From positions 378,501 to 442,500 of the forward strand of contig CAJNDT010003990.1 in assembly GCA_905221615.1 (NCBI GenBank): a stretch of DNA of 64,000 bases. The letters run 5' to 3'. Below the pieces are notes generated by a model that did not search any database, was not told where the DNA came from, and saw nothing but the letters and a program-made list of their open reading frames with translations. Position 1 is the first letter of the stretch. Every line of letters starts with the position of its first letter. The translations under genes were made by a program, and so were the position numbers. Shown here one piece after another: positions 44,528 through 63,077 of the stretch. Source of the stretch: Symbiodinium sp. CCMP2592 (Eukaryota > Sar > Dinophyceae > Suessiales > Symbiodiniaceae).

Positions 44528-44565
<38 letters not shown>

Positions 44566-44566
44566 C

Positions 44567-44613
<47 letters not shown>
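44488..44613. repeat. (TAG)n microsatellite, left part, target of the LTR element
   Basis: TAG repeats run to GTAGTAGTA at 44613 and then change abruptly to the LTR start TGTAAC. They resume as AGTAGTAGTA at 63064 immediately after the 3' LTR. The (TAG)n tract was split by the insertion. Confidence 0.93.
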
Positions 44614-44863: not shown

Positions 44864-44865
44864 AT

Positions 44866-44883
44866 TGGGGGCTGTTCTGGGAA
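44866..44883 (+). other. Candidate primer-binding site
   Basis: Two bases after the LTR, TGGGGGCTGTTCTGG begins with TGG, as expected for pairing with a tRNA 3' CCA. I cannot name the tRNA. Confidence 0.35.
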
Positions 44884-45003
44884 ACGGCCACCCAGGCGGC
44901 TGCTGCGCCGCAATCTTTTAACGTGGCCTCGAAGGCGCGCTTGTCGTGCGCCTTGAGGCCGTGGTCCTGTGTGGCACGGGGCTCTCTCCTTCGCTAGGCG
45001 ACC

Positions 45004-48000
45004 ATGAGCGCTGAGGTCGCAGGTCAGCCGGAAGGAGCCACGTTGCTGAGGTGCATCGAGGATGGGTCAGTGGAGTACCCGGAGAAGATGCCCTTTATGT
45101 ACTGGCTCCGTTGGCGTAAGGAAACGGGGTCCCGTCCCACCAAGAAGAAGGACGGACGATCCACGACGCTAGCAGATGAACAGCGTCTGTGGAAGGAGAC
45201 GATGGAATTCCTCTACGACAACTTCGATGCCGAAGAGGAAGAGGAAGAAGATGAAGAGGAAGATGAGGAAGCTCCAGCTGCGGAAGCGGGCCCGGGTGCT
45301 CAGGATGGCGATCCGGGCCCCAGCTCTGAAGAGCTTCTGCCGGAGGCCGGGGTACCGGCTCCGCGTCCTGCCGCTGCGCCGGCGGACGTGGCCGAGACGG
45401 CGCGCCGTGTTGGTGCGCTTGCTCTCTCGCCGGTGGCCGGCGGCCCGGCCCGTTCCGGGCCTCCCTCGTCTGCTGGGACGGGTGGTCCCGTCACGGCGGA
45501 GACCCTGCAGGCGGACCTGCGGGAGCTCTACCGTCCCGACCAGGAACCGGTCGCGGATTACCTGACGCGGGTTTCAAGGCTGGTTGTGGCCTTGAAGGCG
45601 CACCAGGCAGAGGTCACGGTGGAGGATCTTGAGAAGATCACTACCAAGGCCACCATCCTTGCCGAGGAATACGGCAAAATGGGAGGTGACTGGCACCCTG
45701 CCAGGATGGTGCGGGCCCTGCGCACCAGGTTTACCGTTGCCGCGGTTTCTCTTGGGTCGGAAGACCGAGAGGAGGTCGAGAAGGAGATCTCGTGCCTCGG
45801 CGAGCTGATCTTGGCCCTGGGAGGCAAGAGCAGCGGCGATCCCGAGAAGGTTTGGAGCACTCCTTCTTCTGTCCCGGCCCTGGCGGCCCGGACGGGCGCC
45901 GTTGCGGAGTCGGGCTCTAAGTCCGGAGCACCGGCGCCTCTCCCGGTGGACCTTCAGCTCGCGATCCCTGAGGATCCGCAACCTGGTCCGGGGGACTCAC
46001 CCCTGAAGTCCCGCCTTGCGGCTCTGGAGATAGAGCTCGAAGGGCTTAAGAAGGATAAGCCCGGCGAGCCTCACTCCGCCAGCGGCGGAGCCGGAGAGCT
46101 CGCTGCAGCTTTGGCGGCCCAGACCGAGGCGCTCAAGGAGGCCTTGGCGTCTCGCGGAGGTCAGACGTCGATCACGACCGTGAAGACGGACCTCCAATGG
46201 CCCTCGCTCACCGACGATCGCTCCGACATCCGGGACGTGGTCCAGTTCTACGAAGAGTTCGAGGACGTCTGTGGCCTTGCCAACAACTGCAAGGGGATGA
46301 ATTTCCGGGAGAAACTCATCGCCCTTCGTGCTCGCTGCCGCGGCTCGAGGCTTAAGACCTTTACTAACGTGTACAAGGCTGCCTCCAAGACCGGGGAAGT
46401 TACTGAGAATCCCCAAGCCGTTTACGAAAGGATCAAGCAGCGGCACCTTGTCTTCGGCGAGAGCCGAGAAGAGAAGGAGATGAGGGTGGACGCGGAGCAC
46501 GTCGCCCTCACTAAGGGCCGTCTCACAGGGCACCAGTTCGAGCCCCTGTTTGAGGCCTCCATCGCGGAGCTGGAGAGTGTGGGTCTTGGCAAGACAGCGA
46601 GGGAGCTCTTCCTAAGCTACTTGCGCAAGATGCCTCCACATCTCCAGAAGGAGATCCGCGGTGATAAGCGGTTGTGGCCTAGCGACGGCGCATCCGCAGG
46701 GCTTCGAGGCCCTTCGACCTGGGAAGAAGCGCATAAGGTCGTCCTCGAATATGAGCAGCGTGAGGCTGCGCATCGGGTGACGGCTAATAGCGTGTACGCA
46801 GGTTCGACGGAAGACCCAGCCCTGTCCGCCGCGCGGAAGGAGGTCGAGAAGCTGAGGACGGAGCTCAAGGCTTCTAAGGCCGCGGCCAAGGCGGCCGCCT
46901 CTTCCACGCTTGCCGCTGGTCCGAAAGGAAATGGAAAAGGTAAGCCTATCTGTTTCCATTTCCGCGACCACGGGAACTGCCCAAAAGGGGACGCGTGCCC
47001 TTACTCGCACGACAAGGAGCTCCGCAAAAAGGCCCTCGCGGCCAAGAAGGAGCGGGACGCGTCCACCCTGGCGACAACGCCGGGGAAGGGCAAGGGCAAG
47101 GGCAAGGGTGGACCCGGAGGGCAGCCCAAAGGCAAGGCCAAGGCCAAGCCCAAGGCGAAGTCCAAGGCGGGCGCGAAGCCGCCAGGGACTATCTGCCCTT
47201 TCTTCAAGAAGAACGGGTCGTGCCGTAAGGGAGCGGACTGTGACATGGTCCATTCGCTTCCCGCCACTGGGGGAGCCGCGTTGCCTTCGAACTGGGCGGC
47301 CCCGAGTGGCGCCGGGATGGTGAATCCCTTCGCTACGCTCTCCATCCAGATTGGGAGCGCTGGCACGGTTGTTGCGGCGAACTCCTCCGCTTTCCCGCTT
47401 GCCAAGAGCTCGTCGTCGAAGTTCAGCTCGTTGGACGAGCTGCCTCAGGACTGGTGGCACCTCTGCGAGAACGAGGTCGGGGGGTACCAGTACAGAACAG
47501 TCGTGCAGGTCATCGACGGCATGGTGGAATGCATGCTGGACGGGTGTGCAGGCTCGAACCACATCACGGAGGAACTCCTCTGTGGGATCCTCAACCGGGC
47601 TGCTGCCTTGGGGATCGGCACGGAGGACCGGAGGTTTCCTGTCGTGAAGTTCGAACGCTGGGTGCATCCGGAGTTCGTCCATGGGATCGCTGCAGGGAAG
47701 CCGGTGCCCCTGAAGGGGGCCGTCGTGCTGAGAGTCCGCTTTCTGGAGGGGCTCTCCCCCGACAACTGCAGCGAGGGTCCAGAGATATTCGTGCGCTGTA
47801 AAATAGCCGCGAAAGGAACCTCGGATTGGCATGGGCTCATCCTTGGCGGCCGCGCCTTGGATTGCTCGGGACGGCAGGGCTTGGGCTTCAAGCCCCTTCC
47901 TGACTGCCACTCCCTGGAAACCCTTGGGATTAAGATCCCCAGGTGCGAAGACTACAGTAGGTCGCGGAAGGACCGCGCCTACGCCTTCGAGTCCAGGCTT

Positions 48001-51000
48001 TCTAGTCTCGACGGTGCTCTGTGCTTTGAGCCGGGTACCGGAGGCAGGGACCTGCTCCGGTACAGCGGGGAGAACCCGCTGGAGCTCTTGGCCGGAGATG
48101 GGGTCATCGCACCTGTGAAGAGGGAAGGCAGTGGAGGCCAGGATGGCTCCCTTACGGAGGCTGTCCTCCCGGTAGAGTCCGCCAACTGCGAAGCAGTGCC
48201 TGGGCTGTGGCCCACAGGAGCCGAGGAAGGTTCGATCTTGCTGGTAGCCGAAGAGGACACGACTGTCTCTCCGGGTGCCGTCGTCGGCGAGGTCCGGACC
48301 GGGCTCGCGCAGACCACCGCGTGTGAATGCGGAGGGGTTGAGACCCTCTTTACGGACGCGAGTGGTGACCCGTGTGGGAACTGCGGATTAGGCACTGCCG
48401 AAGACTCGACCTTCCCTGGATGCTTTGCGTGCGGGTCCACCGAGAGGACCGCCGTCTGTGGCCTGCAAGGCTGCGGCGCATGCTCGCACAGCAGGGGTTG
48501 GCGTAAGGGCCTGAGGGTTGGGGCGGTTTTCGCCCTTGCCGCCGTAAGCACGGTCCTAGGAGGGCCTTGGGCCACGGAGTCCGTGGTTACGGATCCGGAT
48601 GCCGTGTCCTTCCTCTCCTCCATCCCCACTGAGGGCCAGTGGTGGCAGACGAAGGGAGGAATGGCTGGCCTTTGGAGCGGCAGGCCCCAGGAAGGTGACC
48701 CGGAGAATCGGCCGGATGTCGAAAGGCTTCCGTACGAGACTTGCCTCTTGAAGTCTTCTGGCGGCCCGTGGCGGTTGTGGCAGACTAGGGACCTCAGGCT
48801 TTGGCCCGAGTCTGTCGACTGGTCGACCGTGCCCGTCACGTCCGATCTCGCGGTCTTCAGGACGAAGACGGGGCCGCGTTGGGCAGGATGGGATGCGGGT
48901 TCCGCTACGAGGGGGCTTGGAGGAAGCCACGGCCGAGACGTCACTAGTGGTTCCAGAGTGGACACTAGGAACGAGCCGGTGTACCACATAGTGGAATCGG
49001 CCGACATTGAGAAGATGATCGAGGAACCTCCCTCCGACTACTACTACGACAAGCTGCGGGAGGATATGGGTGCGAGGCACAAGGGTGCTTGCCCGCACCT
49101 TCTCGATCACCTGGTCTCTTTGGAAGCTTTCCTCGACAAGAGCATCCTCTTTGGGTTCTCCTTTGGTGTCGCCAAGGCTGAGATCTGTGTGTCAGAGGGT
49201 AAGCTCCTCGGGCACCGGATCGGGCGGCACGGGAGTGCGCCCGACGAGGAGCGATGCCAAGCGGTCGTGGATTTCCCGCCGCTTAAGGAAAAGCTCCACA
49301 TCCAGCAATTCCTTGGGTGTGCGAACTGGCTTCGGGGCTATCTGCCAGCGGAATATGGCCATGCTGCTAAGGTTTTGGGCCAATGGCAGAAACCGGGAGC
49401 GGAGTTTCCGGAAGGTGGCCTGGGGACAGGCACCACTGCCGGCTGCAAGGCTTTCAAGGCCATCAAGAAGATGATGAGCCACCATATCAGCCTGGCGGCC
49501 TTCGATGAGGCGTCGGCTGCTGATGGCTCTTGCCCGCTTGAGCAGATAGCGGACGCCAGCGGGATTGCGGTAGGGGGCTCGGTGGTGCAAATGAGCAGGG
49601 ACCTCTCAAGGATTAAGGTTCTTATGACTCACTCCAAGAGTCTGACCCCTGCGCAGCAAAATTGGCCCCCGCTGATTCAAGAAGCCTTCGCACAGCTCGA
49701 AGTCAAGCGAGCAACCCGAAAGGTCTTCGGAACTATCCGAACCCTGTGTTGGACGGACCATGCCAATCTTACGAGAGCGCAGTCCTCTGATATCGGCTCC
49801 GACCAGAAACTGGTTCGATGGGTTGCGGAGATCTTGATGGATGGGTCTGAGATCAGGAGTCTCAGTGGTCGCAGTGCGACGCTGGGGGACTCCTTTTCCA
49901 GGAACCCGAAGGGTCGGGACGAGCTCTTGGCCGCCCGGACCAAGGACTTGGTCGGGATGACTGGCCAGCTGAAGGGGTTCGACCTGGACCAGTACCTTGG
50001 AGAAGGGACCGAAGGTGACGGTCCTGTTCCCTGGGCAGTAGGGGAAGACGCGGTTCCCGATCACGCGACGCAGGTTGCCCCGGCGACCGCGGCTGCGGTG
50101 CCGGTCGGGGTCGCGGGCGGTCCCCCTGTCCGCGTTATGATTGTTTTCGATTATGCCCCTTGGACGGAGCAGGAAAGGGCGCTCACGGAGATCCGTGAAG
50201 TCTTCGTCTCGGGAATCCCGGGGCACTCCATTGCGGTGAGAGGCTGCTGGGGCCCTTTTGAGGACGATGACGGAGTGGCGTCCCACTTCGACGGTATGAC
50301 CGGTAAGCTTACCGGGCCCAAGAAGGTCAAGAAGCTCCGCGTCGACCTGCTTACGTCCTGTGCGAAGGTACTTCGGGAAGCCGCTGCGTTTTCCCCTACC
50401 TTTCTGGTAGGACTTGGCCAAGGAGGAGTTGTCACCGCTGCCTTGCGGTGGCCGCTGGTGGTTGAAGTCACCCTCCAGGCTCGCAACCTGCAGCGCAAGG
50501 AAGCCCGCGTCGCGGGCCTCGCTTGGGCAGGGATCAAGGGTATCTGGAGCCTTAAGCCTAAGGTCTGGAAGGCGCACTCTACTCATGCTGAGGTGGCTGA
50601 GGCGTGCCCAGAGATGGGGCGTGAGTTTCCCGAGCCCCCTATACCAGGATATGGGATAGTGGGCAAGATTGCCGCTTCCGCTGAGGTCCTTTCGTCCCTG
50701 AAGCTAGAAGGGATCTCCAAAGTCGCGGATGTTTCCTTGCGTGGTCTCGTTGACGCGCCCTCTCGGGAGCTTTGGGATCACGAAGGAGTCTGCGCCTGCG
50801 GAAAGAGGACATACCTATTTTCAAGGTGTCCTTCGTGCATCCGGCAGGAGGCGGAGGAAACAGCTCTGGAGGTTGCTGAGGCCCAAGCCGAAAAGGAGGC
50901 CGCTGAGGGCCCGGAGTCTGCCGACCCGAGCGTGTCACTCGAGGTGAACGCCCTCTTGTCCGCCAGCCTTGCTGATGGTTCGGTGGACATTGATACGGAC

Positions 51001-54000
51001 CTCATCCGAGCATGGGCCAAAGGTTTCCTCCAAAAGCCCGTGGAAGGGCTCCTGCCCACGGTGTACGGCAGGATTAAGGCGAGGGTCTGGACTGGGGGCG
51101 ACCTGGAGCTTCCAGTCGAGGGGTGCGAGAAGGACGGCCCTTCTTTGTGGAGTTCCTGGGTCGTGAACGCCTCTGGTGAAGTCCTGCAAGGGCACCAGGC
51201 CTTCCCGTCCTGCCTGAGCGGGCCGAGCTCGCTCAACTGGGCTGTCGAGCCCAACTGGCACAGCCACAGGCATGTGGTTAATTCTGAGTGCGAACGCATA
51301 TGGAATCTCCAGGAGGGCGAAGTTCGCCTCCGGGAATCCTTTGCGTGTCTCCTTGGTCTCAAGGGAGAGGTGGACCGCGTGGAAGGTTGGAATGATGGGG
51401 ACGGCATCCAGTCCCTTGGGCATCGGAAGTCGCTCAGGGCTTCGCCTGTCATCGCCGCCTTCCAGTGTTCAGGAGAGGAAGGCCATTGGATGGCCGTCCA
51501 GCTCTCGAAGAAGATCGAGGTCAAGGAAGGAGAGCTTAGCAGGACCCTGGCTTTTGTGGGGTCCGCTACCAAGGCCCCACGGGTGGTTGTGGAGTTGTAC
51601 TCCTCCCACCGGCCCTTTTGTGTCAAGTCACATTCCGTGCGGACTTGCCGGGTTAAGGTGTCCGCGTCCGGGGGTTCTGGTCCCCTCAGCCTCGGTTCTT
51701 TCCCTGTGCTGTCGGACAAGGACAGCCCGGAGAGTCAGAGAGAAAAGCTGGCCTTGGCGGCCAGGGATGGCGCCGGGCTCTGCGAGTTCGGCGTCACGCC
51801 AGCTCTTCGCACGGCTTGGCACGAGGCTCAACGGAGAGATCCGTCCCTTACGGCTTCGGTCAAGAAGCCGGAAGCCCCTTTCAAGCTTGGCTCGGACGGA
51901 GTCTTGGAGAGGGAAGTGACCATCAAGACTGGCCAGACGGTGGTCGTCCCGGTCGTCCCGAACGGTATCGCCGGGCCCAATGGCGTCACGTGGCGGAAGT
52001 CATGCTACATGACTGTGCATTGTGGCCTCCTGGGGGCGCACCGTTCGGCGGAGGTCACGTTCCGTCTCCTTGAAAGGGCCGTCTGGTGGCCAGGAATGGA
52101 ACCAGACGTTAAGTTGTGGGTGTCCAAATGCCTGGCGTGTGTTAAGGGCAGGGCCCGAGCCACGAAGGTCGAAGCGAAACCTGTCAAATGTCTCGCGGAA
52201 GCGTGTTGGCAGGAAGTTTCCGTCGACTGCGAGGGTCCTAATCGGGAGGACCGCGATGGCTTCCGATACAGTATTACGTACTTTGATTGCCTTAGCCACG
52301 CAGTGCTTCTGGAACCCATGAAGACACTTACGCATACGGATGTGCGTAGGGCATTTCTGCGGTGCGTGCTGAGATCACGCACCCTGCCCCGCCTCATCCG
52401 ATCTGATCGAGGCACTGAGTTCAAGAATGCCATGATGCTGGAGTTGTGCTCCATGCTTGGGACAACTCAGCAGTTCAGTATGGCTCTCAGGCCTTGTGAG
52501 ATGGGGTCCAACGAGAGGGTCCACCAAGAGGTCCAGAAGGTTCTGGGTAACCTCATCCGGCATATCGGCGGCTCCATGGAGAACTGGAGCGAATGGCTCA
52601 TGGTCGCCGAGTATGTGTTGGATAATACCCCGGGGGCGCATGGGTACACCCCCAGGGACCTGGAACGGTCCTGGAGCCTCGCCTTGCCGTTGGAGAAGGA
52701 CGTTCTCCGCGAGGCCCTCCAATTCGAGCCCATCACGGACTGGGCCCGTTCCCAGTTCAAGCAGTTTTCCGACTTGGCGGCCGCTGTGCGGCGCCATTGG
52801 GACGCGAGCAGTGAGGCGCGTGCCCGACTTGCTAATCGGTCGCGTCGCACAGTTGAGCTCCGCGTGGGGGACAGAGTTGTCTGGAATTCCCCCAAGCCCC
52901 GGCCAGAGGGGGCGGGGCGTGTCCCTTGGAAGCCTGGTCTGACCGGCCCTTGGAGGATAGTGGCGGTTAAAGGCCATAGGCTGCAACTCGAACTTGTTCC
53001 TGGTGGCCCTGGTGAGGCGCCAGGCCGGCAATGTGAAGCCCACGCGGAGGATGTAGTGCTCGTGCCGGAAGATGCGGAGGTGCCCGAGAAGAGGGACCCC
53101 ATAGAGTTTTTCGACGAGCCAGAGCATCAGCCGCCTTCATTGGGTCAGCAAGCGGCCGGTGAAGCTAAGCAGGTCGAGTTTACTGTCAAGCGCCGGGGCC
53201 GCAACTTCGTGTTGCGTATTGGTGACCATGTTGCGTACCATGGCGCCCGAGTGGGCCCTAAAACCTGTCGCCTAGGCAAGGTCACGCAAGTGGACGAAGC
53301 CAGGGCACAGGTGGGCGTCCACCGGTACATCCCCGACGCCTCAGGACTCAGAGTCCGGTGGCACCTTGCGTTTTTGGACGAAGGCGGTTCTCTGACCCGC
53401 GAAGGGACGAGACAGGCCATAGAGTCCATCACCGTGAAGGAGATTATCTCCAAGGTGGATCTTAGTAGGGATGGGGTTCTCGCTGCGTCTTCTGCCCGGA
53501 AGCTCGATAAGGCCGGTTACTCCTTGCAAGAGTCCGTGCCGGACCGAGTGGGTGTGGCAGCTTCCCCGATTGACGTCCCTGCTGCGTTGAAGGAGCTCCT
53601 TGCTGAGGCTCCCGCGCCCTCCTTGATCGTCGGTAGAGGTAGCTCCTGTGCCGCGGTCCAGGGGTGGATCAGAGATCACCTAGAGGGTATGGACGTGGAC
53701 CTTGTCGAAGTAGCGGTGTCGGAGCACTCGCTTACTCAGGTCAGTAAGGCAGGAGGCCTGCGTAGCCCTCCTGCTGCGGTTCAAGGAGCCAGCTCCTACG
53801 GGATCCGCTGGGACTTCTCCTCAGAGGAGGACCGGCAAGCCCTGAGCCTTCTGGTCGATACGCTCGACCCCAAGTGCCTCGTTGTGGGCCTATCCGGTAA
53901 GGGTATCCCCAAGGAGTTCCTCTCCCTGGTCAGTAGGTGGGGAGCAATGGTGGCCGAGAAGGGGCGCCAGATGCTTGTTACTATCTCAGATCAGGAAGGA

Positions 54001-57000
54001 CTTTGGGAGCCTTGGGAGGCCCAGGGGTGGGCTCCCGTGTTTGGGACGCTTTCGGAACCGAAGTTCCCTTGGGCTTTCGGCCGAGCTGATCGATGTCAGC
54101 TCTTGGGATCAGTTCCTAGGGGTTCTAAGCATTCGGAAGGAGCGCTGATCTGTCTTTCCAACTTCAAGATGGATTCGGTTTGCGTTCGCTGTGCAAAGCC
54201 TGACGCTTTGGGCAGGGTAGCCCATCAGCACGCGAAGGCCCGGACCTCTTCGAGGGTGCTCGCTCCGGCCTTGTGCCGTTGCCTGGCGGATGCTGGTCTG
54301 AGGGGCGACCAGCCCCCTTGCTACGACAGCATTTGCTCAGTGAGCGGCCAGCCGCCGGCTGAGCCTGCGAAGCCTTCCGCTCCGGAGGTACCGTTGCCGG
54401 ACGTTAAGTCTGGCGAGGACCTCTCCCCTCAAGAGAGAGCGAAGATGGAGGCTGAAGTTCTGGAGTTCTCCAGGAAGATGGATGCTCACTGGCGGTCGAA
54501 GGCAGACGCCAAGGATTGGGATGGTGTCTTCGCGGACCTGGAGGTCTATGCGTTGGCAGGCCAGGCTGTGGCTGCCGATCCCCGCCGTACGCCAGAGTAT
54601 AAGGCGCAGGTCATTGAAGGCCTCAGGTTGGGCCCTACGGAGAACCGTCCGGGGCTCACCGAGGCTGATCTCGCAGCCATTAAGGAGACGGTGGGCCGGA
54701 AGGCCGCTGCATTCTGGGTCGAAGGTACGGCGCGTACCACGGTCCGGAAGTTTGCGCACGACTGCGTCCCTACGGGGCCTCCGGTCAGCTCTCAGCCCCA
54801 TGCGCTCCGCGGGGAAGCGGCGCAGTGGGTTGATGACCGGCTTGAGGAGGAGGTCCAGAGAGGGCAGCTTGTGCGAGGCCCTTCGGCCTGGGGTTCGGCC
54901 CCTTTCCCTACGAAGGAGATGCCTTCCCACAAGCGGGCGAGGAAACGCCGCTTGGTGGTAGATTACCGCAGGGTAAACGCCAGGGTGAAGAGATCCACTT
55001 ACTACTGCCGGCGGAGCACGGATGTGCTCGCTGCAGCGGTAGGATCAGTCTGGTATAGCTTCGTTGATGCGGTTTCCGGGTTCAATCAGATCCGCAACAC
55101 GAAGCGTGCCAGGGAGGTTCTTGCCATTGTTGCGCGTAGCGGTAAGTACCTCCCTATTGGGCTTACCTTCGGGCCTGTCAATGGTCCCGACGATTTTAAC
55201 TACGTCGTGGACCGCGCGTATGCGCCGGGTCGCAATCGAAGGCTTAGGTTCACTAAGGAATGGGTGGCCTATGTCGACGACCTGACGGTTCGTACAGGTA
55301 GGGTCGTTGACGGCCGTTTCCTCACGGATGCGGAGGCAGAGGAGGAGATAAGGACGGCGTGCCGGAAGGGCAGCCGCTCCGCGCCTCAGACCGCCGCTTC
55401 CGCCCTTGAAGCCTTAGGCGCTCGAGGCCGCGACGGCTCGAGCTCCAGTCCGCCTGACGCGGACCGGAAGGTCGCGCCTAAAGCAAAAGCAAAACACGAT
55501 GAATCCCTAACGGACACTAACCACCCCACAAGAGCCCTATACCCTAACTCGCTTGTGTTCGTCTTGACCGCTTGTGTCTTGACCGCGGGGTCTAGGTTAG
55601 GGTTCGGGGTCTTAGTGTGCCGCGTCGGGGGGGTTCGGGGGGGAACGTGGGGGGCAGCTCGGACGCAGGCCTGTACGCCCGTGGGTCGCTACCTCCTTTC
55701 TATGCTACTACTCGTTGCGTGCGTGCTGCAGCAAGGGTGTAGTGAGGTAGTCCAGGGTGTAGGTCGTGCTGAGTGTGAGCCCTACCCCCTCTCTCTGTGC
55801 AGCCCCCTTGAACCCCCTGCCTTTCAGGACATGGCCGCGCAGCGTGGGCTCAAGACGAGTAGCCCAGTAGCTTGCGACGGGCCGCGCGGGCCCTTGCCAT
55901 CGGCTTCTTGCGCCTCGCGGTGTGCTTTGGCACACGTGGGCCGGGAGGTCGCGTGTACCCCTCTTTCCTTCGCTGCCGGTGGGTCCTCCGTGGACCGGCT
56001 GGTCGCGGAGCCACTCCCACTTTTTCCTCCGTGTGCCGGGCCCCTCGTGGGCCAGGGAGCCGCGAGGGGCGCCATGGGAGGTGGCCGCAGACGCGGGAAC
56101 GAAGGGAAAGGCGGTCGTGATAGCAACTCACGATGGCAGCCGTGGGTGTGGCTAGAGAACCCCGCGGTTTGCCAGAGGGCGCTTACGCAAGCCCTCCGCC
56201 ACGGCAAATTCGGCCTGCAGGGCCATCTCGGCGAAGGGGGCTGGATTAGCGTATCCGCCTTAGCCGAGAAGCTCCAGATCACTTCGTCCGCGATCGAGGC
56301 AGGTGCGGCGAGTGATCTGGAAAACGCGGCTGGCGGTCGGGAGAAGCAGCGGCTGGAGCTGGTCGATGGCCGGATCCGGGCTCTCCAGGGACACGGCCGT
56401 GGGTCAGGATTGACCGCGGGCACCGTGTATGGAGACGGCCTCGATGAGGCCGGCATGAGGGAGCTCTCGGTAGAGTACGGAGGCTCCACCCTCTGTCATG
56501 GCACAGAGGTGTTTCATGCGCGGCGGATCGGCCGCGACGGCCTCCTCCCGGGAGGCGGAAACGGCCCGCGCCTGACTGTCCATTGGGTGATCGGGCCCGG
56601 GTACCCAAGACAGCGGGACAGTACGTCGGGCTTTAGAAAGAACTCGACCTGTCTTGTGGTCTCGAACCTCGAGCTCCTAAGGGCTTCCGGGGTGCCCGTC
56701 TGGAGAGGGACAGACGGATGTGTTCTGACAGGGCGTGTCCCTCCAGAATGCATCCTCCGAATCCTCACGGTGCAACCCGGCTGTGAAGTCTTCGACCTCT
56801 CGCTTGCAGAGCGTCAGGGTAACACCCTGCGGTGGGTCGATGATGCGGAGCCCGGGAGCGGAGTCCGCAGAGAGCAGTCGGCGCCGCCTGGCGGAGCCGG
56901 CCCGGTCAACTACTATATCGGGGACGAGGACTCGTCTTCCGAGCTGGAAGTTGAGGTGCGGGCCAAGAGCTCGGCAATGCCGGCGGGACCCCCGCCTGGA

Positions 57001-60000
57001 CCACCTAAGGAGGGTGGTCCCCGTGGGATGCCCTCTGCGCTGCATCGGTCCAGGACGGTCGATGATAGGCCGCCGCCAGGGCGGGAAGGCAAACTAAAGC
57101 CTACCCCCAAGGTGGCCCCAGAGGGAGCGCCTTCGGCAGGGGAACAGGAGCGGGGAAGATCACACCGCCCCCCTCAAAAGGTGCCTCCCGAAGCACCGCC
57201 TGCGGACACGATCCGCTACAAGACGCCGCCCAGGGCCCGGGATGAGCTGCCTGAGGATCCTCAGGCCGCGCCCGGTGACCCTGAGGGTGCCGGTGCAGCG
57301 CCTGGGGATCAGCCGATGGAGGCGGACCGTACGCTTACTCCAGCGGATTTGTTCCACCCGAAGAACTTCAGCAAGAAGGCGAACCCGAAGCCGCCGCCGA
57401 AGAGGCCAGCCGTTCCGGAAGGAATGGTCACGGTGAAGCCTGGCCCGACGCCGAAAGGGGTCAGGCCTCCACCGCCGTTCCTGATCATGGAAACCGAGAG
57501 GGCCGAGGAGTTCTTGAGCACCAGGCCTGGATGGTTGCTGGGTGGGCCGGCTGAGCCGCCCATCGCGCGATCTCCTCCTCCGCCACCTGCTGCGAGGAAC
57601 CGGTCGGAAAGGCCCTTGCCTCATGGAGGGCTGGGGCCCGGGCCTTACCAAGGCCCTATCCGGCCTAAGCTTGGTGGGCCTCCGCTCAAGGCCGCTCCGA
57701 AGGGGGCCGTTCCTAGTGCTGAAGCCCCTTCTGCGAGCTCGGCCTCCACGGGAGGCCCAGAGGGCTCCCGAGAAGGAGGTACGGCCGTCCCAGAGGAGAC
57801 CGAGGAGGAACGGGCCAAGACTGAGGCCATCCTCCGCGGGATCGACGATTTCATGGCATCCGTGGAGCGTCGGTCGGCAAGCCAAGAACGGCCCGCTCCG
57901 AAGTCTCCTGCGCGGCACACCTTTGTGCCTTTCAGTGTGGATCCGATTCCCGAGGAGGCTGCAGTGCCTGGGGAATTCGTCGATCTCGGGGACACCCCCG
58001 ACCGGAGTGCGATCCATGGCGGGGGCGTGGCTGGTTGCCCTACACCCGAGGAGATTGGGAACGGAGACCCTAGAAGGGTTCCTTCCCGTGGGTCCGGCCA
58101 CAAGTGTGGTATCCGCGGGTGCCGTGCCGAATTCGAGCACGAGTACGAAGCCGCGTACCACCGAGCGGCGGTCCACGGAAGGGGCCTTCCGGCGAACATG
58201 GTGCCGGCCCCGTGCGACGATGCGTTCTTTGGAGAAGCCGCTGTGGCTCTGAGACGCTTCCGCCACGGAGAAGCTCGCAGAGACCACAGAGACCGTGTCT
58301 GGGTCTTTGAGGCTGACCTGGGCCGGTTTACGCATATCTCCAACCCGGACCGCTTCTGTGATCGCATCGGGGCGGAGCTGCGTGATTTCAGGCGGCTCCC
58401 GGATGGGGCGCCTTGTGTCACTTCCGATGGTCTCTGGCGCACGTATCGCCTTGACCGGAGGCCGGTGCAGCGGGCGAAGCCTCCCGTGCGCTACCCGAGT
58501 ACCATTCTCGGGCCAGCGTACGAGGAGACGGACTTCATGATGCCCAACGCCGCAGCTCCGAGTCCCTACCGTCACTTGTTTAGGGACGAGACCCCGCTGG
58601 GCGAAGCGTTGGAGGCGATTCGCGAAGAGCAGGGGAGATCCGGAGAGGTTCCCGAAGATGTTGAACCGCCTCCTCCGGCGTTCCCCGACGAGCTTTTGGA
58701 GCCCCAAGATCCGGACGTGGACGCTCCCCGGGAAGATACCCCGAGGGAGCACGTCCAAGCGATGAGGGAAACCTTTTCAGACCTTATCTGGAACGCCCAC
58801 GATGGGCTCAGAGAAGAAAAGCTCGCCGCGGGTGTCTTGAACCCTATCGCAAAGCAGACTGACACCCAACTGGAGATAGATCCCCCTATGCTGGAAACGG
58901 ATCTGCTCCCTCGAGAGAAGGGGGGTGTCCAGAGGACTGGAACCCCGCCTGATCCACGATGGGGTGCGGAGCCTCAGGCTTCCAGCCCTAAGAAGAAAGC
59001 TCCGCCATCTTCGGCGACGCATTCCGAGGATCAGGAGATGGCTCCTGCTCCTCCGGATGCCTCTCAGGAGGCGTCTTCCTCCTCTGCAGCGCCTGCGGCC
59101 AACGTGACTCCCCCAGCTGAGGCAGGGAGTCCGGAGGTCCGGATCCCTAGCCTCGCGGAGTCTATGAAGGCAGGCTTGGCACGGGAAAGAGCGGCGGCAC
59201 GCGCCAAGGAGGAGCTTGCTGCTTCGGCCCAGGAGGCCGCGGCTGCGGCTCCTGAGGCACGGCGCGACACCCGCCTTCCTGCAGTGACCAAGGAGGAAAA
59301 GGAGACAGCAGAGGCTAAGTCCCTCTCCTCCCTCAAGCGCGCCGTTGAGGAGAGCGGCTCTGAGCGTCAAGGCCCCGCGGCCAAGCGGGCCACCACCAAG
59401 AAGGAAGAAGCGCCCTCGGCACCAGCCGGCCCTGCAGGAGCCGCGGCCGGGACAGGCGCGGCTCCCTCGTCTAGTGGCGAGGCAGGTGCCGAAGAAGGTG
59501 CCAGCGGGGCCGCTGCTCCGTCGAGCACAGACAAGCGGCGACCCGCGGAGCCGGAGGGACCGCCGCCGCCCAAGAAGCGATTCACAACATGGCAGGATAC
59601 CATGGAGTCGCCGGCTCCCCAACACCGAGTTTCGGGGGTTTACGGACTCTCGAACGAGGTTCCCGGGGCCGATTGGCGCGACGTGGACTGGGATGCGACT
59701 CCACCGCCGGGGCCTGGAAGGCCCGGCGCCCGCGACGTGGATCCCAGGCTCACGGTCCCCCTTGATCTCCAACATGATGAACAGATCAGGGAATTCTTCC
59801 GAGGCGGTGGTGAGCATACGCTCGAGCAGCTCCTCGCGTTGGCGCGGCGCCGGAGGCGCGCGTTCGTCTACCAGGCTGCGATTTTGTCGAACAGGCCAGT
59901 GTTTGAAATCTGGCCCGATTACGATGAAAACGAGCTTGGACCGACACCCGAGCGCGTTCCGCTCCTCACAGGCAAGGTCTGGCCTTGGGGCTGGTGGGAT

Positions 60001-62412
60001 TGCTTTACTTGTGGGCGTGCGAACCCACCAGAACGCAATACCTGCCGGCACCATGATTCCGAGGAGCTCGGAGGTGCCCCCTGTGTGGGGATCTTCGAGG
60101 ACAGCCTGTACTGGAGCACGCCGGTGGACCTGCGAACGGCGCCGGCGTGGTTCATCGAGGTCTGGCTCGATGAACATAAGGAACGCATAAAGGAGTACCT
60201 TTATGCGAAGCGTTCGGACGCGATCGCCGCCGCAATGTCCAACGCCTACTGGACCTGTGGGCGGGACACATGCCAAGAGAGGAACATGTTATGGCGCAAA
60301 CTGTGCTTTAAGTGCAGTGGCCCTAAGTCGGGCGCGTCGTTCATAACCCACGGCATGCCGCCCCAGGAAGGCGACGATGAAGCTGCTTCTTCGTCGGAAG
60401 AGAGCGAGGGCACGAAGATGGAACGGATCGAGCGTTCCATCAACGCCGATCCCCTTGCGGAGCATGCGAGGAAATTCCTCCGCTCCGGACGGAAGAGGCT
60501 CCGCGCTGAAAAGCGCAGGCAGGCAGAGCTCTCTCAAGACTCTGCCCGAGCCTGGTGGAGCCAACCTTCCTCCGGGCGCGGTGCACCCAGTGGGGGCCGC
60601 AGCTCTGGCAGCAAGGGTGGTGGCAAAGGTGGTGGAAGGGGAAGCTCGAACCGCTACGGCAACCGAGGATGGTGGGCCGGAGGTGCTGCCGGACTGGCAT
60701 ACTCCTCCCGACTCGGCGAGCGTGCTGGGCAGCCCGCCCTCACGCTCCCACTGCGTGGCCCGGGTGGCCACAGAGTGGCGCCCGAGGCCCCTGCCGTTTC
60801 TTCTCGCCCCGCTGTCTCTTCCGGGCCCTCGAACCGTGGTGGGTTCCTTGGGGCCGTGCGCTCGATAGGCGCTGCGGTCTCCAGCTGGGCTCTCTCCAGG
60901 AGAGCGCGCAATCGCGCAGCCCACGCCACAACGGGCAACATTGGATGGAAGACGGGTTTGGTGGCCGCTGCGCTGGCGCCTACCCTCTTCACTGTTGAGC
61001 GCGGTGCCAGAGAGGTGGCACACGTGAGCCTCACTGCAGTTGCCACTGCGGCGGAGGACCTCATCGAGGAATCCTCTGGTATCCTCGTTCGGGGTGTCCG
61101 CGTGGTTGGCTTGACGGCCGTCGTCCTACTGTGGACGTTCGCGGCCGTAGTGCTGTGGTGGGCCGGACGTGTCGCCACTAACCGGCTAATGCACGCCATG
61201 AACGGTAACCCCTTTGGGAATGCTGTTCTGGTGTCGCTCGAAGGCCGGGAGGCTGTCTTTGAGGTTGCATCAAAGACTAAGGCCGGAGCACACAGGGTTC
61301 TTGTGAAGGTCGGGTCGGGCGCGGACGGCGCAGGCTGCGACTGCAAGGCATTCCTCAACGAGGGACGTTGTGGTCACATAGAACGCGCTGTTGAAGCTGC
61401 GGGGCAACTCGTGGCCATGACAGGCGCGAGCGCTGCCCCAACGCTGTCCGTCGCCCCGGCCGCGACTAGACGCGCCCGTGCGATCCTCGGCGCGCCGGCC
61501 CTGGAACAGGGGTGCCTTGCCGGCATGGTGTCGAAAGCGAGATCGCTCTCTGAAAGAGCTCGGAATGTCGGGAACCCGTCCGAGGGTTGCCTTGACGGCT
61601 TTACCAAGCTCAGAGGCCGCCACGAGGTGGCCACAGTGTCGGCGCCTCCGACAGAGACTGTTCCGAAGACGCCTGCAGCGGAGGCTTCCCGCCAGGGTAC
61701 CTCTGCGGCGTCTCCGGCTCCGACAGCTCCCATGTCGAGCCAGGCACGGCGTGTCAGAGACTTCCCGATCCCTGACGGCTTCGAGCGAGCCGGGGTCAAG
61801 TTTCTGACCCTTCCGGAGTATCACGCTGTGGTACAAACGATGCTATCGGACGCTGGGCATGGGGACCACGTTTACGTGCGAGCCTACAGCTTCGATAGCA
61901 AGCCTTTGGTTGGAGCCCTCGTGTCCTCGCTGGAGCGAGGCGCCCGAGCCCACGTGCTTGCCGACAACTCGCAGACGAGCCGGACCAAGCTCCAGCTGCA
62001 GTCCCTCAAGGAGCTAGGGGCGGCTGGCGTCCAGGTCCGTGTCGGCAAGGGCACCTCGGTCAAGGCGGCTTACGCCGCCGAGAACCGCACGGACGTGAGC
62101 ATCGGCGCAGGCCTCGCGGGCATCCACCACGCCAAGACGGTGCTCGTGACGAGGCCGGACTCCACAGTTAGCGCCGTGATAGGAAGCCTAAACTTTAGTG
62201 CTAGTTCACGGGCCAACGCGGAGGTCGGCATCGCGGTCGCCAGTGTGCTGACCTCTGAATTTAGCCAAAAGTGGCTAGATTCGTTTGGCACCGAGTGGTC
62301 CAAGGCGCTGAAGCTCGAGGAGTTCGAAGCACCTCAGCGGAACCACCGCGGGCGGGCAAAACCCTCAAATGTCCAGCAGCCCGCCGCGCAACCCAACGTG
62401 GAGCCGCAGTGA
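45004..62412 (+). CDS. 5,802-aa Gag-Pol-accessory polyprotein
   Basis: One continuous frame from ATG 45004 (MSAEVAGQPEGATLL) to TGA 62410, with no frameshift between Gag and Pol. Domains by residue: acidic and Ala/Pro-rich N-terminus (1-370), Gag-like core (about 388-553), two CCCH fingers (650-669, 731-750), retropepsin-like motif (D846), Cys cluster (about 1107-1160), RT connection/thumb half (about 1326-1450), RNase H (about 1480-1645), integrase (2339-2700), second SH3-like part (about 2733-2800), RT fingers/palm half (about 3265-3445), low-complexity spacer (about 3490-3600), Tpt1/KptA-like domain (about 3705-3943), long Pro/Glu/Ala-rich regions, C2H2 finger (4368-4391), RanBP2-type fingers (4998-5017, 5083-5104), membrane segment (about 5367-5389), SWIM finger (5445-5458), PLD domain (about 5600-5765). 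All key catalytic residues in Pol are present. Proteolytic processing is presumably required. Confidence 0.95.
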   Translation: MSAEVAGQPEGATLLRCIEDGSVEYPEKMPFMYWLRWRKETGSRPTKKKDGRSTTLADEQRLWKETMEFLYDNFDAEEEEEEDEEEDEEAPAAEAGPGAQDGDPGPSSEELLPEAGVPAPRPAAAPADVAETARRVGALALSPVAGGPARSGPPSSAGTGGPVTAETLQADLRELYRPDQEPVADYLTRVSRLVVALKAHQAEVTVEDLEKITTKATILAEEYGKMGGDWHPARMVRALRTRFTVAAVSLGSEDREEVEKEISCLGELILALGGKSSGDPEKVWSTPSSVPALAARTGAVAESGSKSGAPAPLPVDLQLAIPEDPQPGPGDSPLKSRLAALEIELEGLKKDKPGEPHSASGGAGELAAALAAQTEALKEALASRGGQTSITTVKTDLQWPSLTDDRSDIRDVVQFYEEFEDVCGLANNCKGMNFREKLIALRARCRGSRLKTFTNVYKAASKTGEVTENPQAVYERIKQRHLVFGESREEKEMRVDAEHVALTKGRLTGHQFEPLFEASIAELESVGLGKTARELFLSYLRKMPPHLQKEIRGDKRLWPSDGASAGLRGPSTWEEAHKVVLEYEQREAAHRVTANSVYAGSTEDPALSAARKEVEKLRTELKASKAAAKAAASSTLAAGPKGNGKGKPICFHFRDHGNCPKGDACPYSHDKELRKKALAAKKERDASTLATTPGKGKGKGKGGPGGQPKGKAKAKPKAKSKAGAKPPGTICPFFKKNGSCRKGADCDMVHSLPATGGAALPSNWAAPSGAGMVNPFATLSIQIGSAGTVVAANSSAFPLAKSSSSKFSSLDELPQDWWHLCENEVGGYQYRTVVQVIDGMVECMLDGCAGSNHITEELLCGILNRAAALGIGTEDRRFPVVKFERWVHPEFVHGIAAGKPVPLKGAVVLRVRFLEGLSPDNCSEGPEIFVRCKIAAKGTSDWHGLILGGRALDCSGRQGLGFKPLPDCHSLETLGIKIPRCEDYSRSRKDRAYAFESRLSSLDGALCFEPGTGGRDLLRYSGENPLELLAGDGVIAPVKREGSGGQDGSLTEAVLPVESANCEAVPGLWPTGAEEGSILLVAEEDTTVSPGAVVGEVRTGLAQTTACECGGVETLFTDASGDPCGNCGLGTAEDSTFPGCFACGSTERTAVCGLQGCGACSHSRGWRKGLRVGAVFALAAVSTVLGGPWATESVVTDPDAVSFLSSIPTEGQWWQTKGGMAGLWSGRPQEGDPENRPDVERLPYETCLLKSSGGPWRLWQTRDLRLWPESVDWSTVPVTSDLAVFRTKTGPRWAGWDAGSATRGLGGSHGRDVTSGSRVDTRNEPVYHIVESADIEKMIEEPPSDYYYDKLREDMGARHKGACPHLLDHLVSLEAFLDKSILFGFSFGVAKAEICVSEGKLLGHRIGRHGSAPDEERCQAVVDFPPLKEKLHIQQFLGCANWLRGYLPAEYGHAAKVLGQWQKPGAEFPEGGLGTGTTAGCKAFKAIKKMMSHHISLAAFDEASAADGSCPLEQIADASGIAVGGSVVQMSRDLSRIKVLMTHSKSLTPAQQNWPPLIQEAFAQLEVKRATRKVFGTIRTLCWTDHANLTRAQSSDIGSDQKLVRWVAEILMDGSEIRSLSGRSATLGDSFSRNPKGRDELLAARTKDLVGMTGQLKGFDLDQYLGEGTEGDGPVPWAVGEDAVPDHATQVAPATAAAVPVGVAGGPPVRVMIVFDYAPWTEQERALTEIREVFVSGIPGHSIAVRGCWGPFEDDDGVASHFDGMTGKLTGPKKVKKLRVDLLTSCAKVLREAAAFSPTFLVGLGQGGVVTAALRWPLVVEVTLQARNLQRKEARVAGLAWAGIKGIWSLKPKVWKAHSTHAEVAEACPEMGREFPEPPIPGYGIVGKIAASAEVLSSLKLEGISKVADVSLRGLVDAPSRELWDHEGVCACGKRTYLFSRCPSCIRQEAEETALEVAEAQAEKEAAEGPESADPSVSLEVNALLSASLADGSVDIDTDLIRAWAKGFLQKPVEGLLPTVYGRIKARVWTGGDLELPVEGCEKDGPSLWSSWVVNASGEVLQGHQAFPSCLSGPSSLNWAVEPNWHSHRHVVNSECERIWNLQEGEVRLRESFACLLGLKGEVDRVEGWNDGDGIQSLGHRKSLRASPVIAAFQCSGEEGHWMAVQLSKKIEVKEGELSRTLAFVGSATKAPRVVVELYSSHRPFCVKSHSVRTCRVKVSASGGSGPLSLGSFPVLSDKDSPESQREKLALAARDGAGLCEFGVTPALRTAWHEAQRRDPSLTASVKKPEAPFKLGSDGVLEREVTIKTGQTVVVPVVPNGIAGPNGVTWRKSCYMTVHCGLLGAHRSAEVTFRLLERAVWWPGMEPDVKLWVSKCLACVKGRARATKVEAKPVKCLAEACWQEVSVDCEGPNREDRDGFRYSITYFDCLSHAVLLEPMKTLTHTDVRRAFLRCVLRSRTLPRLIRSDRGTEFKNAMMLELCSMLGTTQQFSMALRPCEMGSNERVHQEVQKVLGNLIRHIGGSMENWSEWLMVAEYVLDNTPGAHGYTPRDLERSWSLALPLEKDVLREALQFEPITDWARSQFKQFSDLAAAVRRHWDASSEARARLANRSRRTVELRVGDRVVWNSPKPRPEGAGRVPWKPGLTGPWRIVAVKGHRLQLELVPGGPGEAPGRQCEAHAEDVVLVPEDAEVPEKRDPIEFFDEPEHQPPSLGQQAAGEAKQVEFTVKRRGRNFVLRIGDHVAYHGARVGPKTCRLGKVTQVDEARAQVGVHRYIPDASGLRVRWHLAFLDEGGSLTREGTRQAIESITVKEIISKVDLSRDGVLAASSARKLDKAGYSLQESVPDRVGVAASPIDVPAALKELLAEAPAPSLIVGRGSSCAAVQGWIRDHLEGMDVDLVEVAVSEHSLTQVSKAGGLRSPPAAVQGASSYGIRWDFSSEEDRQALSLLVDTLDPKCLVVGLSGKGIPKEFLSLVSRWGAMVAEKGRQMLVTISDQEGLWEPWEAQGWAPVFGTLSEPKFPWAFGRADRCQLLGSVPRGSKHSEGALICLSNFKMDSVCVRCAKPDALGRVAHQHAKARTSSRVLAPALCRCLADAGLRGDQPPCYDSICSVSGQPPAEPAKPSAPEVPLPDVKSGEDLSPQERAKMEAEVLEFSRKMDAHWRSKADAKDWDGVFADLEVYALAGQAVAADPRRTPEYKAQVIEGLRLGPTENRPGLTEADLAAIKETVGRKAAAFWVEGTARTTVRKFAHDCVPTGPPVSSQPHALRGEAAQWVDDRLEEEVQRGQLVRGPSAWGSAPFPTKEMPSHKRARKRRLVVDYRRVNARVKRSTYYCRRSTDVLAAAVGSVWYSFVDAVSGFNQIRNTKRAREVLAIVARSGKYLPIGLTFGPVNGPDDFNYVVDRAYAPGRNRRLRFTKEWVAYVDDLTVRTGRVVDGRFLTDAEAEEEIRTACRKGSRSAPQTAASALEALGARGRDGSSSSPPDADRKVAPKAKAKHDESLTDTNHPTRALYPNSLVFVLTACVLTAGSRLGFGVLVCRVGGVRGGTWGAARTQACTPVGRYLLSMLLLVACVLQQGCSEVVQGVGRAECEPYPLSLCSPLEPPAFQDMAAQRGLKTSSPVACDGPRGPLPSASCASRCALAHVGREVACTPLSFAAGGSSVDRLVAEPLPLFPPCAGPLVGQGAARGAMGGGRRRGNEGKGGRDSNSRWQPWVWLENPAVCQRALTQALRHGKFGLQGHLGEGGWISVSALAEKLQITSSAIEAGAASDLENAAGGREKQRLELVDGRIRALQGHGRGSGLTAGTVYGDGLDEAGMRELSVEYGGSTLCHGTEVFHARRIGRDGLLPGGGNGPRLTVHWVIGPGYPRQRDSTSGFRKNSTCLVVSNLELLRASGVPVWRGTDGCVLTGRVPPECILRILTVQPGCEVFDLSLAERQGNTLRWVDDAEPGSGVRREQSAPPGGAGPVNYYIGDEDSSSELEVEVRAKSSAMPAGPPPGPPKEGGPRGMPSALHRSRTVDDRPPPGREGKLKPTPKVAPEGAPSAGEQERGRSHRPPQKVPPEAPPADTIRYKTPPRARDELPEDPQAAPGDPEGAGAAPGDQPMEADRTLTPADLFHPKNFSKKANPKPPPKRPAVPEGMVTVKPGPTPKGVRPPPPFLIMETERAEEFLSTRPGWLLGGPAEPPIARSPPPPPAARNRSERPLPHGGLGPGPYQGPIRPKLGGPPLKAAPKGAVPSAEAPSASSASTGGPEGSREGGTAVPEETEEERAKTEAILRGIDDFMASVERRSASQERPAPKSPARHTFVPFSVDPIPEEAAVPGEFVDLGDTPDRSAIHGGGVAGCPTPEEIGNGDPRRVPSRGSGHKCGIRGCRAEFEHEYEAAYHRAAVHGRGLPANMVPAPCDDAFFGEAAVALRRFRHGEARRDHRDRVWVFEADLGRFTHISNPDRFCDRIGAELRDFRRLPDGAPCVTSDGLWRTYRLDRRPVQRAKPPVRYPSTILGPAYEETDFMMPNAAAPSPYRHLFRDETPLGEALEAIREEQGRSGEVPEDVEPPPPAFPDELLEPQDPDVDAPREDTPREHVQAMRETFSDLIWNAHDGLREEKLAAGVLNPIAKQTDTQLEIDPPMLETDLLPREKGGVQRTGTPPDPRWGAEPQASSPKKKAPPSSATHSEDQEMAPAPPDASQEASSSSAAPAANVTPPAEAGSPEVRIPSLAESMKAGLARERAAARAKEELAASAQEAAAAAPEARRDTRLPAVTKEEKETAEAKSLSSLKRAVEESGSERQGPAAKRATTKKEEAPSAPAGPAGAAAGTGAAPSSSGEAGAEEGASGAAAPSSTDKRRPAEPEGPPPPKKRFTTWQDTMESPAPQHRVSGVYGLSNEVPGADWRDVDWDATPPPGPGRPGARDVDPRLTVPLDLQHDEQIREFFRGGGEHTLEQLLALARRRRRAFVYQAAILSNRPVFEIWPDYDENELGPTPERVPLLTGKVWPWGWWDCFTCGRANPPERNTCRHHDSEELGGAPCVGIFEDSLYWSTPVDLRTAPAWFIEVWLDEHKERIKEYLYAKRSDAIAAAMSNAYWTCGRDTCQERNMLWRKLCFKCSGPKSGASFITHGMPPQEGDDEAASSSEESEGTKMERIERSINADPLAEHARKFLRSGRKRLRAEKRRQAELSQDSARAWWSQPSSGRGAPSGGRSSGSKGGGKGGGRGSSNRYGNRGWWAGGAAGLAYSSRLGERAGQPALTLPLRGPGGHRVAPEAPAVSSRPAVSSGPSNRGGFLGAVRSIGAAVSSWALSRRARNRAAHATTGNIGWKTGLVAAALAPTLFTVERGAREVAHVSLTAVATAAEDLIEESSGILVRGVRVVGLTAVVLLWTFAAVVLWWAGRVATNRLMHAMNGNPFGNAVLVSLEGREAVFEVASKTKAGAHRVLVKVGSGADGAGCDCKAFLNEGRCGHIERAVEAAGQLVAMTGASAAPTLSVAPAATRRARAILGAPALEQGCLAGMVSKARSLSERARNVGNPSEGCLDGFTKLRGRHEVATVSAPPTETVPKTPAAEASRQGTSAASPAPTAPMSSQARRVRDFPIPDGFERAGVKFLTLPEYHAVVQTMLSDAGHGDHVYVRAYSFDSKPLVGALVSSLERGARAHVLADNSQTSRTKLQLQSLKELGAAGVQVRVGKGTSVKAAYAAENRTDVSIGAGLAGIHHAKTVLVTRPDSTVSAVIGSLNFSASSRANAEVGIAVASVLTSEFSQKWLDSFGTEWSKALKLEEFEAPQRNHRGRAKPSNVQQPAAQPNVEPQ
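46165..47260 (+). other. Gag region with two CCCH zinc fingers
   Basis: Residues 388-553 (FREKLIALRARCRGSRLKTF ... LFLSYLRKMPPHLQKEI) form a helical capsid-like block. Two fingers follow with spacing C-x8-C-x5-C-x3-H at C650-C659-C665-H669 and C731-C740-C746-H750, linked by a Lys/Gly-rich basic stretch. CCCH fingers normally bind single-stranded RNA. Here they take the place of the CCHC knuckles usual in retroelement nucleocapsids. Confidence 0.85.
47449..47900 (+). other. Aspartic-protease-like region
   Basis: VECMLDGCAGSNHITEELL resembles the retropepsin active-site loop (hydrophobic-D-T/S-G-A-x-x-x-x-I). D846 is present, but the triplet reads D-G-C and not D-T/S-G. A later ILGGRALD segment matches the conserved hydrophobic 'ILG' after the flap. 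The assignment is by position and motif. The altered triplet makes activity uncertain. Confidence 0.6.
48979..49940 (+). other. RT connection half plus RNase H (no palm)
   Basis: Residues 1363-1440 read HLLDHLVSLEAFL, KAEICVSEGKLLGHRIGRHG and IQQFLGCANWLRGYLP. This is the stretch that in Ty3-type RT follows the YxDD motif. RNase H comes next: D1517 in IADASGIAVGG, probable E1560, D1585 in WTDHANL, and a terminal SFSRNP. Upstream of residue 1320 there is no fingers, motif A or YxDD sequence. The catalytic half of RT is missing here and lies instead at about 3265-3445, after the integrase. Confidence 0.88.
51980..53080 (+). other. Integrase, DD35E with HHCC finger
   Basis: The HHCC finger is H2339, H2346, C2376, C2379. 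The catalytic core has D2408 (VSVDCEGP), D2468 (IRSDRGTEF) and E2504 (GSNERVHQEV), with exactly 35 residues between the last two. The C-terminal SH3-like part starts RVGDRVVWNSP (about 2620). All three acidic residues are intact. A second R-I-G-D-H-V-A-Y block at about 2738 looks like a duplicated or tudor-like module. Confidence 0.93.
54795..55380 (+). other. RT fingers/palm half (YVDD), displaced behind the integrase
   Basis: WVDDRLEEEVQRGQLVRGPS, KRRLVVDYRRVN (D3320-Y3321), SFVDAVSGFNQI (motif A, D3355), LPIGLTFGPVNGPDDFN (motif B region) and WVAYVDDLTV (Y3423, D3425-D3426). About 25 residues after YVDD the homology stops and low-complexity sequence begins. The missing continuation matches the start of the block at residue about 1363. 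Confidence 0.93.
55490..55830 (+). other. Low-complexity spacer with 3' splice-site-like end
   Basis: The frame stays open, but the translation looks non-coding: ACCCTAACTC and GGTTAGGGTTCGGGG telomere-like words, hydrophobic LLSMLLLVACVLQQG. It ends CCCCCTGCCTTTCAG followed by GACATG, with the in-frame ATG at 55831. This could be an intron, a trans-splice acceptor for a separate 3' mRNA, or an inserted linker. Confidence 0.5.
56110..56840 (+). other. Tpt1/KptA-like RNA 2'-phosphotransferase domain
   Basis: LTQALRHGKFGLQGHLGEGG followed by WISVSALAEKL matches the Tpt1 N-terminal winged helix with the catalytic R-H pair (R3732-H3733). RIRALQGHGRG is the RA-x-QGH motif (R3792, H3797). CHGTEVFHARRIGRDGLLPG is the HGT loop of the ADP-ribosyltransferase fold (H3832). 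TVHWV follows, and VWRGTDGCVLTGRVPPECI matches the closing 'NgVwLT..VPP' element. Tpt1 removes an internal 2'-phosphate from RNA using NAD+. Three of the four known catalytic residues are clear, and the fourth (Arg) is probably in VWRG. Confidence 0.88.
58105..58176 (+). other. C2H2-type zinc finger
   Basis: C4368-x4-C4373-x12-H4386-x4-H4391 (CGIRGCRAEFEHEYEAAYH...). This is a single finger between Pro-rich regions, a possible nucleic-acid or protein contact. Confidence 0.7.
59980..60320 (+). other. Two RanBP2-type zinc fingers
   Basis: WDCFTCGRANPPERNTCRHH (C5000, C5003, N5007, C5014, H5017 in place of the last Cys) and WTCGRDTCQERN...LCFKC (C5085, C5090, N5094, C5101, C5104). Both show the W-x-C...C-x3-N...C-x2-C/H pattern. 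This family binds single-stranded RNA or ubiquitin. Confidence 0.72.
61180..61420 (+). other. SWIM-type zinc finger
   Basis: CDCKAFLNEGRCGHIERAV has C5445-x-C5447-x8-C5456-x-H5458, the exact SWIM spacing. It is preceded by hydrophobic strands (GREAVFEVASKT, HRVLVKVGSG), as usual. SWIM fingers occur in MuDR-type transposases and other DNA-binding proteins. A membrane-type segment (VVGLTAVVLLWTFAAVVLWW) lies just upstream at about 61102-61168. Confidence 0.8.
61795..62330 (+). other. Single-HKD phospholipase D-like nuclease domain
   Basis: VYVRAYSFDSKPLVGALVSS, ERGARAHVLAD, LGAAGVQVRVG, then IHHAKTVLV and IGSLNFSASSRANAEVG. This is the PLDc_2/Nuc layout: H5709-x-K5711 and GSxNFS with downstream N and E. 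The third HKD position (D) is Thr here. One HKD copy implies a homodimer, as in bacterial Nuc. It is the last domain of the polyprotein. Nuclease activity is inferred. Confidence 0.85.
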
Positions 62413-63063: not shown

Positions 63064-63077
63064 AGTAGTAGTAGTAC

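Follow-up and report, generated by a model that had tools for sequence, protein, structure and literature searches.

The window analysed here, a stretch of 64,000 nucleotides from one contig of Symbiodinium sp. CCMP2592, contains at 44614-63063 a complete, young long terminal repeat (LTR) retrotransposon of 18.45 kb. Its single gag-pol-like frame of 5,802 codons (45004-62412) is open throughout and, like all features of the element described below, lies on the forward strand. Judged from its sequence, the element is assembled from Ty3-type parts, with a reverse transcriptase (RT) that would be circularly permuted around ribonuclease H (RNase H) and integrase and would come in two pieces; the probability of this reading is put at about 0.8. 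Only slightly less confidence is placed in the broader proposal of a natural two-piece permuted RT, the active site of which would be formed by two chains or by two segments in reverse order. The proposal includes purifying selection and, in this genome, recent amplification, and a lineage that appears to have spread through symbiotic dinoflagellates and, by two more distant proteins (P0099 and P0100), other hosts. To our knowledge, the known RTs of retroviruses, LTR and non-LTR elements, group II introns and telomerase are built as one continuous right hand. No precedent for a natural split or permuted RT was found in the literature searched, a search that most subscription journals fell outside.

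The chain runs from a protease-like region through the C-terminal half of the RT (C-half), RNase H and integrase to the N-terminal half of the RT (N-half). The C-half core, comprising the palm helix that follows the break, the primer-grip region and the thumb, is found at 49102-49383 (residues 1367-1460) by profile and fold match; with profiles built from the element's own family, the C-half match covers 48958-49383. It continues into the RT connection and RNase H (49384-49983, residues 1461-1660), identified by profile and by Pfam RT_RNaseH (residues 1516-1610, E 4.4e-9). The integrase follows at 51760-53283 (residues 2253-2760), where an H2C2 zinc-binding part and a DD35E core are recognised by Pfam, profile and motif positions. 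Pfam Integrase_H2C2 matches residues 2332-2382 (E 5.4e-10) and rve residues 2417-2496 (E 1.8e-7), the latter with 31.7 bits, slightly below the cut-off of 32.6. Only then comes the N-half, with fingers and palm, at 54397-55413 (residues 3132-3470, its tail included), supported by profile and by Pfam RVT_1 over residues 3310-3429 (E 1.2e-6; 28.8 bits, slightly below the cut-off of 29.6). The copia-type RVT_2 is not listed for the frame among Pfam matches up to E 10. An RT split in two, with its halves reversed around the integrase in an order that is neither that of Ty3 nor that of copia, had been proposed in a sequence-only reading of the window. Both proposals are borne out by Pfam and the family profiles, with RNase H before the integrase and the N-half after it.

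The same reading held that all catalytic residues survive, and they do. Motif A (D3355) and motif C (YVDD, residues 3423-3426, 55270-55281) both lie within the N-half, RNase H keeps the motifs ADAS, WTDH and LGD, and the integrase keeps D2408, D2468 and E2504, the last two separated by 35 residues. These are the residues and motifs that we take to be catalytic. A second palm upstream of residue 1360, which might have been overlooked, is absent: when the window was scanned in all six frames (508 open stretches of at least 60 amino acids), each RT half gave one match, and the next-best C-half match had an E-value of 0.15.

The position of the break was located more closely than before. Recognisable palm homology stops about 7 residues past YVDD, not about 25 as first estimated, after which comes a tail of some 60 residues specific to the family. 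In relatives with a canonical RT, the C-half match starts 4 residues after YLDDIVV (P0053), or the two matches overlap by 6 residues (P0106). Since the N-half and C-half profile matches nearly touch in canonical RTs, the break falls, on sequence comparison, within the loop that leads from the YxDD catalytic hairpin to the palm helix after it, with little or no RT missing. The earlier reading had the C-half start where the RT would normally continue; in the window, the C-half opens with some 50 residues of family-specific extension (48952-49101, residues 1317-1366). A degenerate YxDD was considered in this extension, where P0048 reads HIIVDD, and was dismissed as too weak.

A PDB sequence search aligned the N-half to residues 108-210 of the Ty3 RT (4ol8), and the C-half with RNase H to residues 249-475 of the same structure, which is the best match of both. 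By Foldseek, the fold of the C-half matches the C-terminal parts of RTs. These results bear on the alternative that the N-half was acquired by fusion from a different element, instead of both halves stemming from one permuted RT. Two complementary halves with almost no gap or overlap, and with Ty3 RT as the best PDB match for both, make a fusion improbable. The distances between relatives measured on the two halves correlate at 0.91, which does not decide the matter: integrase and RNase H correlate with the halves at 0.76-0.92 also, and the value therefore shows no more than a common descent of the polyprotein as a whole.

The swapped order was next compared across a relative set of 106 proteins, collected by a first protein search and one search per RT half. 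Seven long relatives (3,662-6,174 residues) came from the first protein search, among them proteins of Durusdinium trenchii and Cladocopium goreaui, and they match the window in collinear stretches. By family profiles, both halves are present in 16 of the 106 proteins, with 11 in swapped and five in canonical order, and the other 90 have one half or neither. The swapped-order proteins include records from Durusdinium, Cladocopium and Symbiodinium, and the order first read from the window alone is found in other dinoflagellates as well. The canonical-order proteins (four of animals, namely two from Lasioglossum, one from Channa and one from Synaphobranchus, and one more) share 26-30% identity with the window; canonical cases may exceed five, as P0055 and P0056 have a Pfam RVT_1 match without a match to the N-half profile. 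About 100 residues are missing inside the N-half of P0002 (profile positions 107-207), perhaps through a gene-model error, and P0037 contains only part of the N-half. Across the set, the C-half comes immediately after the protease-like region in 35 proteins, and the N-half immediately after the integrase in 28.

More distant members are represented by P0099 and P0100 (38-40% identity), where the integrase stands ahead of the N-half and the same break follows FVDD; the C-half would lie beyond the sequence covered. P0100 belongs to the swapped-RT family and is filed under a metagenome-assembled genome of Acidobacteria. Its contig is probably eukaryotic and mis-binned. Apart from this record, all close relatives with a species or genus name come from symbiotic dinoflagellates. 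No relatives were confirmed in viral contigs, and none in prokaryote genomes with P0100 as the query.

Mean identities over five relatives reach 68% for the N-half core and 66% for the C-half core, compared with 63% for RNase H and 48% for the integrase, which makes the two half cores the most conserved of the parts compared. The family-specific ends are less conserved, at 43% for the roughly 50 residues before the C-half and 31% for the roughly 60 after the N-half, and the linkers beyond them fall to 9% and 16%.

The rest of the genome was searched in a 1.1-Gb assembly of 5,383 contigs. The C-half with RNase H occurs at 100% protein identity in at least 117 places and the N-half in at least 122; some of the listed copies could be assembly duplicates. 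Of the 117 listed C-half copies, 82 have an N-half on their own strand 4.9-6.2 kb downstream, in 69 cases at exactly 5,508 bp, and no listed N-half was found within 3 kb on either side of any of the 117. The remaining 35 have no listed N-half at the expected distance: 32 have none on the same contig and strand, and in three it is farther away. A stop-to-stop frame of 5,804 codons is kept in at least 33 of the 117 listed copies. An assembly artefact, a nested insertion or a rearranged dead copy was considered and is ruled out by the identical LTRs around an open frame, by the same layout in 82 of 117 listed copies and by the same order in other species. An assembly join, in particular, is very unlikely given those LTRs, the 69 copies with identical spacing and the agreement between species.

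Selection was assessed by counting synonymous and nonsynonymous differences from the window, for the C-half and RNase H only, at nine loci (L047-L055). Five older copies with 90-98% nucleotide identity gave synonymous to nonsynonymous counts of 95 to 4 (L048), 20 to 3 (L049), 63 to 3 (L050), 40 to 2 (L051) and 87 to 3 (L055). The C-half and RNase H are under strong purifying selection along lineages.

Several observations weigh against a working permuted RT. The four least diverged copies lack a synonymous excess, with counts of 0 to 7 (L047), 0 to 1 (L052), 3 to 4 (L053) and 0 to 1 (L054). This is read as the free change expected once a copy has inserted. Some Foldseek matches of the C-half reach into the range of the N-half (for example 8r0s_A 170-475 and 8ygj_E 184-482), and some of the N-half reach into that of the C-half (for example 2wom_B 3-385). 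The N-half modelled alone is weak, with a mean pLDDT of 63 and palm strands mostly below 50. In addition, the genome holds two stronger RT_RNaseH matches, C2:1427427-1427738 (78.7 bits) and C5238:27121-27426 (57.7 bits), where this family scores about 43; from their sequence, they perhaps represent other Ty3-type elements and could belong to a canonical RT that acts in trans.

These two matches, together with the many other RVT_1 genes of the genome (150 of 5,731 candidates were scored), count in favour of the alternative that the RT halves are inactive relics, or serve another role, and that a canonical RT of another element does the copying. Such a dependence is considered unlikely. Across several species, the half cores retain their catalytic residues and show the highest conservation of the parts compared, and the strong purifying selection on the C-half and RNase H likewise speaks against relics.

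For the two-piece permuted RT, a mechanism can be outlined in which the element would use its own RT. Each half would fold, and the two would dock non-covalently to give a single polymerase site, whether the polyprotein has been processed by then or is still one chain. The joint may be stabilised by the family-specific extensions that both new ends carry. As the likeliest origin, RT-RNase H-integrase would have been duplicated in tandem, and the first N-half and the second C-half would then have been lost.

The sequence-only reading had suggested an RT assembled from two processed pieces. Its assembly part is well supported, though indirectly, by the conservation, the selection on the C-half, the recent amplification and the complementary sequence and fold matches. 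The processing part is less certain: docking within an uncut chain is also possible, because the protease is known from a motif alone, in which DTG is changed. An N-half that folds back on the C-half in one chain would be a form of the permuted RT and not its opposite, and it is given somewhat less than an even chance. All domains stand in one frame. The retropepsin-like region (47434-47883, residues 811-960) is recognised by motif only and reads D-G-C-A. Retropepsins have D-T/S-G-A at that motif. In all eight long polyproteins the region reads D-[GY]-[CG]-[AS], a departure from D-T/S-G, and it has no Pfam match and no PDB match. On the other side, its mean identity of about 50% over the five relatives suggests that it acts, and an uncut chain would have to bridge the roughly 1,470 residues that lie between the RT halves.

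It had also been suggested that splicing might restore the normal order. This is unlikely because cis-splicing cannot reverse the order of segments and the frame is open throughout. Dinoflagellates do trans-splice leaders. A reordering at the RNA level, by back-splicing to a circular RNA or by trans-splicing, from which a normal RT would be translated, is nevertheless highly improbable: nothing was found in its favour, the frame is uninterrupted, and the family-specific extensions at the new ends are conserved, as expected of real protein ends or joints.

Among the known systems, Ty3/gypsy elements (Metaviridae, with the Ty3 RT 4ol8) are alike in their TG...CA LTRs, short target duplication, RVT_1-type RT, RT_RNaseH, and H2C2 and DD35E integrase. 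They have a canonical contiguous RT in the order protease-RT-RNase H-integrase, whereas the RT of the window element is cut and its N-half follows the integrase. Ty1/copia elements have the order integrase-RT-RNase H with an RVT_2-type RT, while the window element has RNase H before the integrase and an RT of RVT_1 type. In Gmr1-like gypsy elements, according to the available text of the source, the integrase is placed ahead of the RT domain (PMC3587641). They share with the window element the Ty3 type and an integrase upstream of the RT catalytic sequence; on the same text, they differ in that the window element also has the C-half and RNase H upstream of the integrase.

A natural permutation of the palm is described for the RNA-dependent RNA polymerases (RdRps) of permutotetraviruses and birnaviruses, where, in the portion of the paper available, the motifs run C-A-B and the active-site architecture is kept (PMC4666646). 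By analogy, and as far as that portion goes, they are a precedent for the tolerance of permutation, but for a different change and in an RdRp, not an RT. There the polymerase is described as one continuous domain, whereas the RT of the window keeps A before C, has its break after C, and has RNase H and integrase between its pieces. Finally, dinoflagellate DIRS and LINE elements with cytosine methyltransferases are reported, together with two DIRS types that differ in the domain order of Pol (PMC5890265, available text). They resemble the window element in having extra enzyme domains and differ in belonging to other element classes, and no split RT is described in that text.

If the permuted RT is real, the RT fold would tolerate permutation in nature, and the break point named here would be of use in engineering split RTs. 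Such elements would be misread by annotation that demands RT and RNase H in one contiguous stretch; the N-half here already falls slightly below the Pfam RVT_1 cut-off.

The element is bounded by two LTRs of 250 bp (44614-44863 and 62814-63063), direct repeats that are identical to each other and begin and end with TG...CA. The sequence directly after the 5' LTR, where a tRNA primer-binding site would be expected, is ATTGGGGGCTGTTC, and no tRNA for comparison with it was found within the window. AGTA is present on either flank, inside a (GTA)n repeat. Nine insertion sites were read by eye, that of the window and eight others (among L077-L092). A 4-bp target duplication was seen at seven of the nine, three of them ambiguous as they lie in trinucleotide repeats, and no clear duplication was seen at the C4994 and C5037 sites. 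The flanks are clearly different at six of the nine; the copies in the window, C4994 and C31 have similar repeats around each, yet lie on different contigs. On this sequence evidence, the element has spread recently by integrase-type insertion.

The insertion sites are often trinucleotide repeats. The window has (GTA)n (flanks 44454-44613 and 63064-63194), three or more of the other eight sites read also lie in such repeats (C4994, C5021 and C31), and C5037 has one on one side only. This hints at a target preference. A short CCCTAAA array (42639-42738) lies within the contig, shortly ahead of the element. Its units are like the plant telomere repeat.

The remaining parts of the polyprotein were also assigned. 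A Gag-type region with CCCH zinc fingers is located at 46939-47268 (residues 646-755; Pfam zf-CCCH, zf_CCCH_4 and Torus). Between RNase H and the integrase, a conserved region of about 460 amino acids (50011-51393, residues 1670-2130) shows 29% mean identity, and residues 1670-2239 have no Pfam match. A methyltransferase relic between the integrase and the N-half, suspected from motifs in P0003, was rejected, as it gave no Pfam match. Downstream of the N-half, a Tpt1/KptA RNA 2'-phosphotransferase-like domain is found at 56176-56730 (residues 3725-3909; PF01885, 46.3 bits, cut-off 26), followed by a RanBP-type zinc ribbon at 60247-60330 (residues 5082-5109; below the Pfam cut-off) and a PLD-like domain at 61864-62298 (residues 5621-5765; PLDc_2, 36.8 bits, cut-off 27). 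By family profiles, the Tpt1/KptA domain is present in all eight long polyproteins and the PLD-like domain in five of the eight.

Outside the element, the window contains a second retroelement-like stretch at 11169-19615. It comprises an RVT_1 frame at 12165-15047, presumably LINE-like, and a frame at 16634-19615 that contains DUF6822 (E 1.2e-62). Two frames at 28521-31447 match phospholipase B, one at its start and the other at its end, and from these matches they are probably exons of a host gene.

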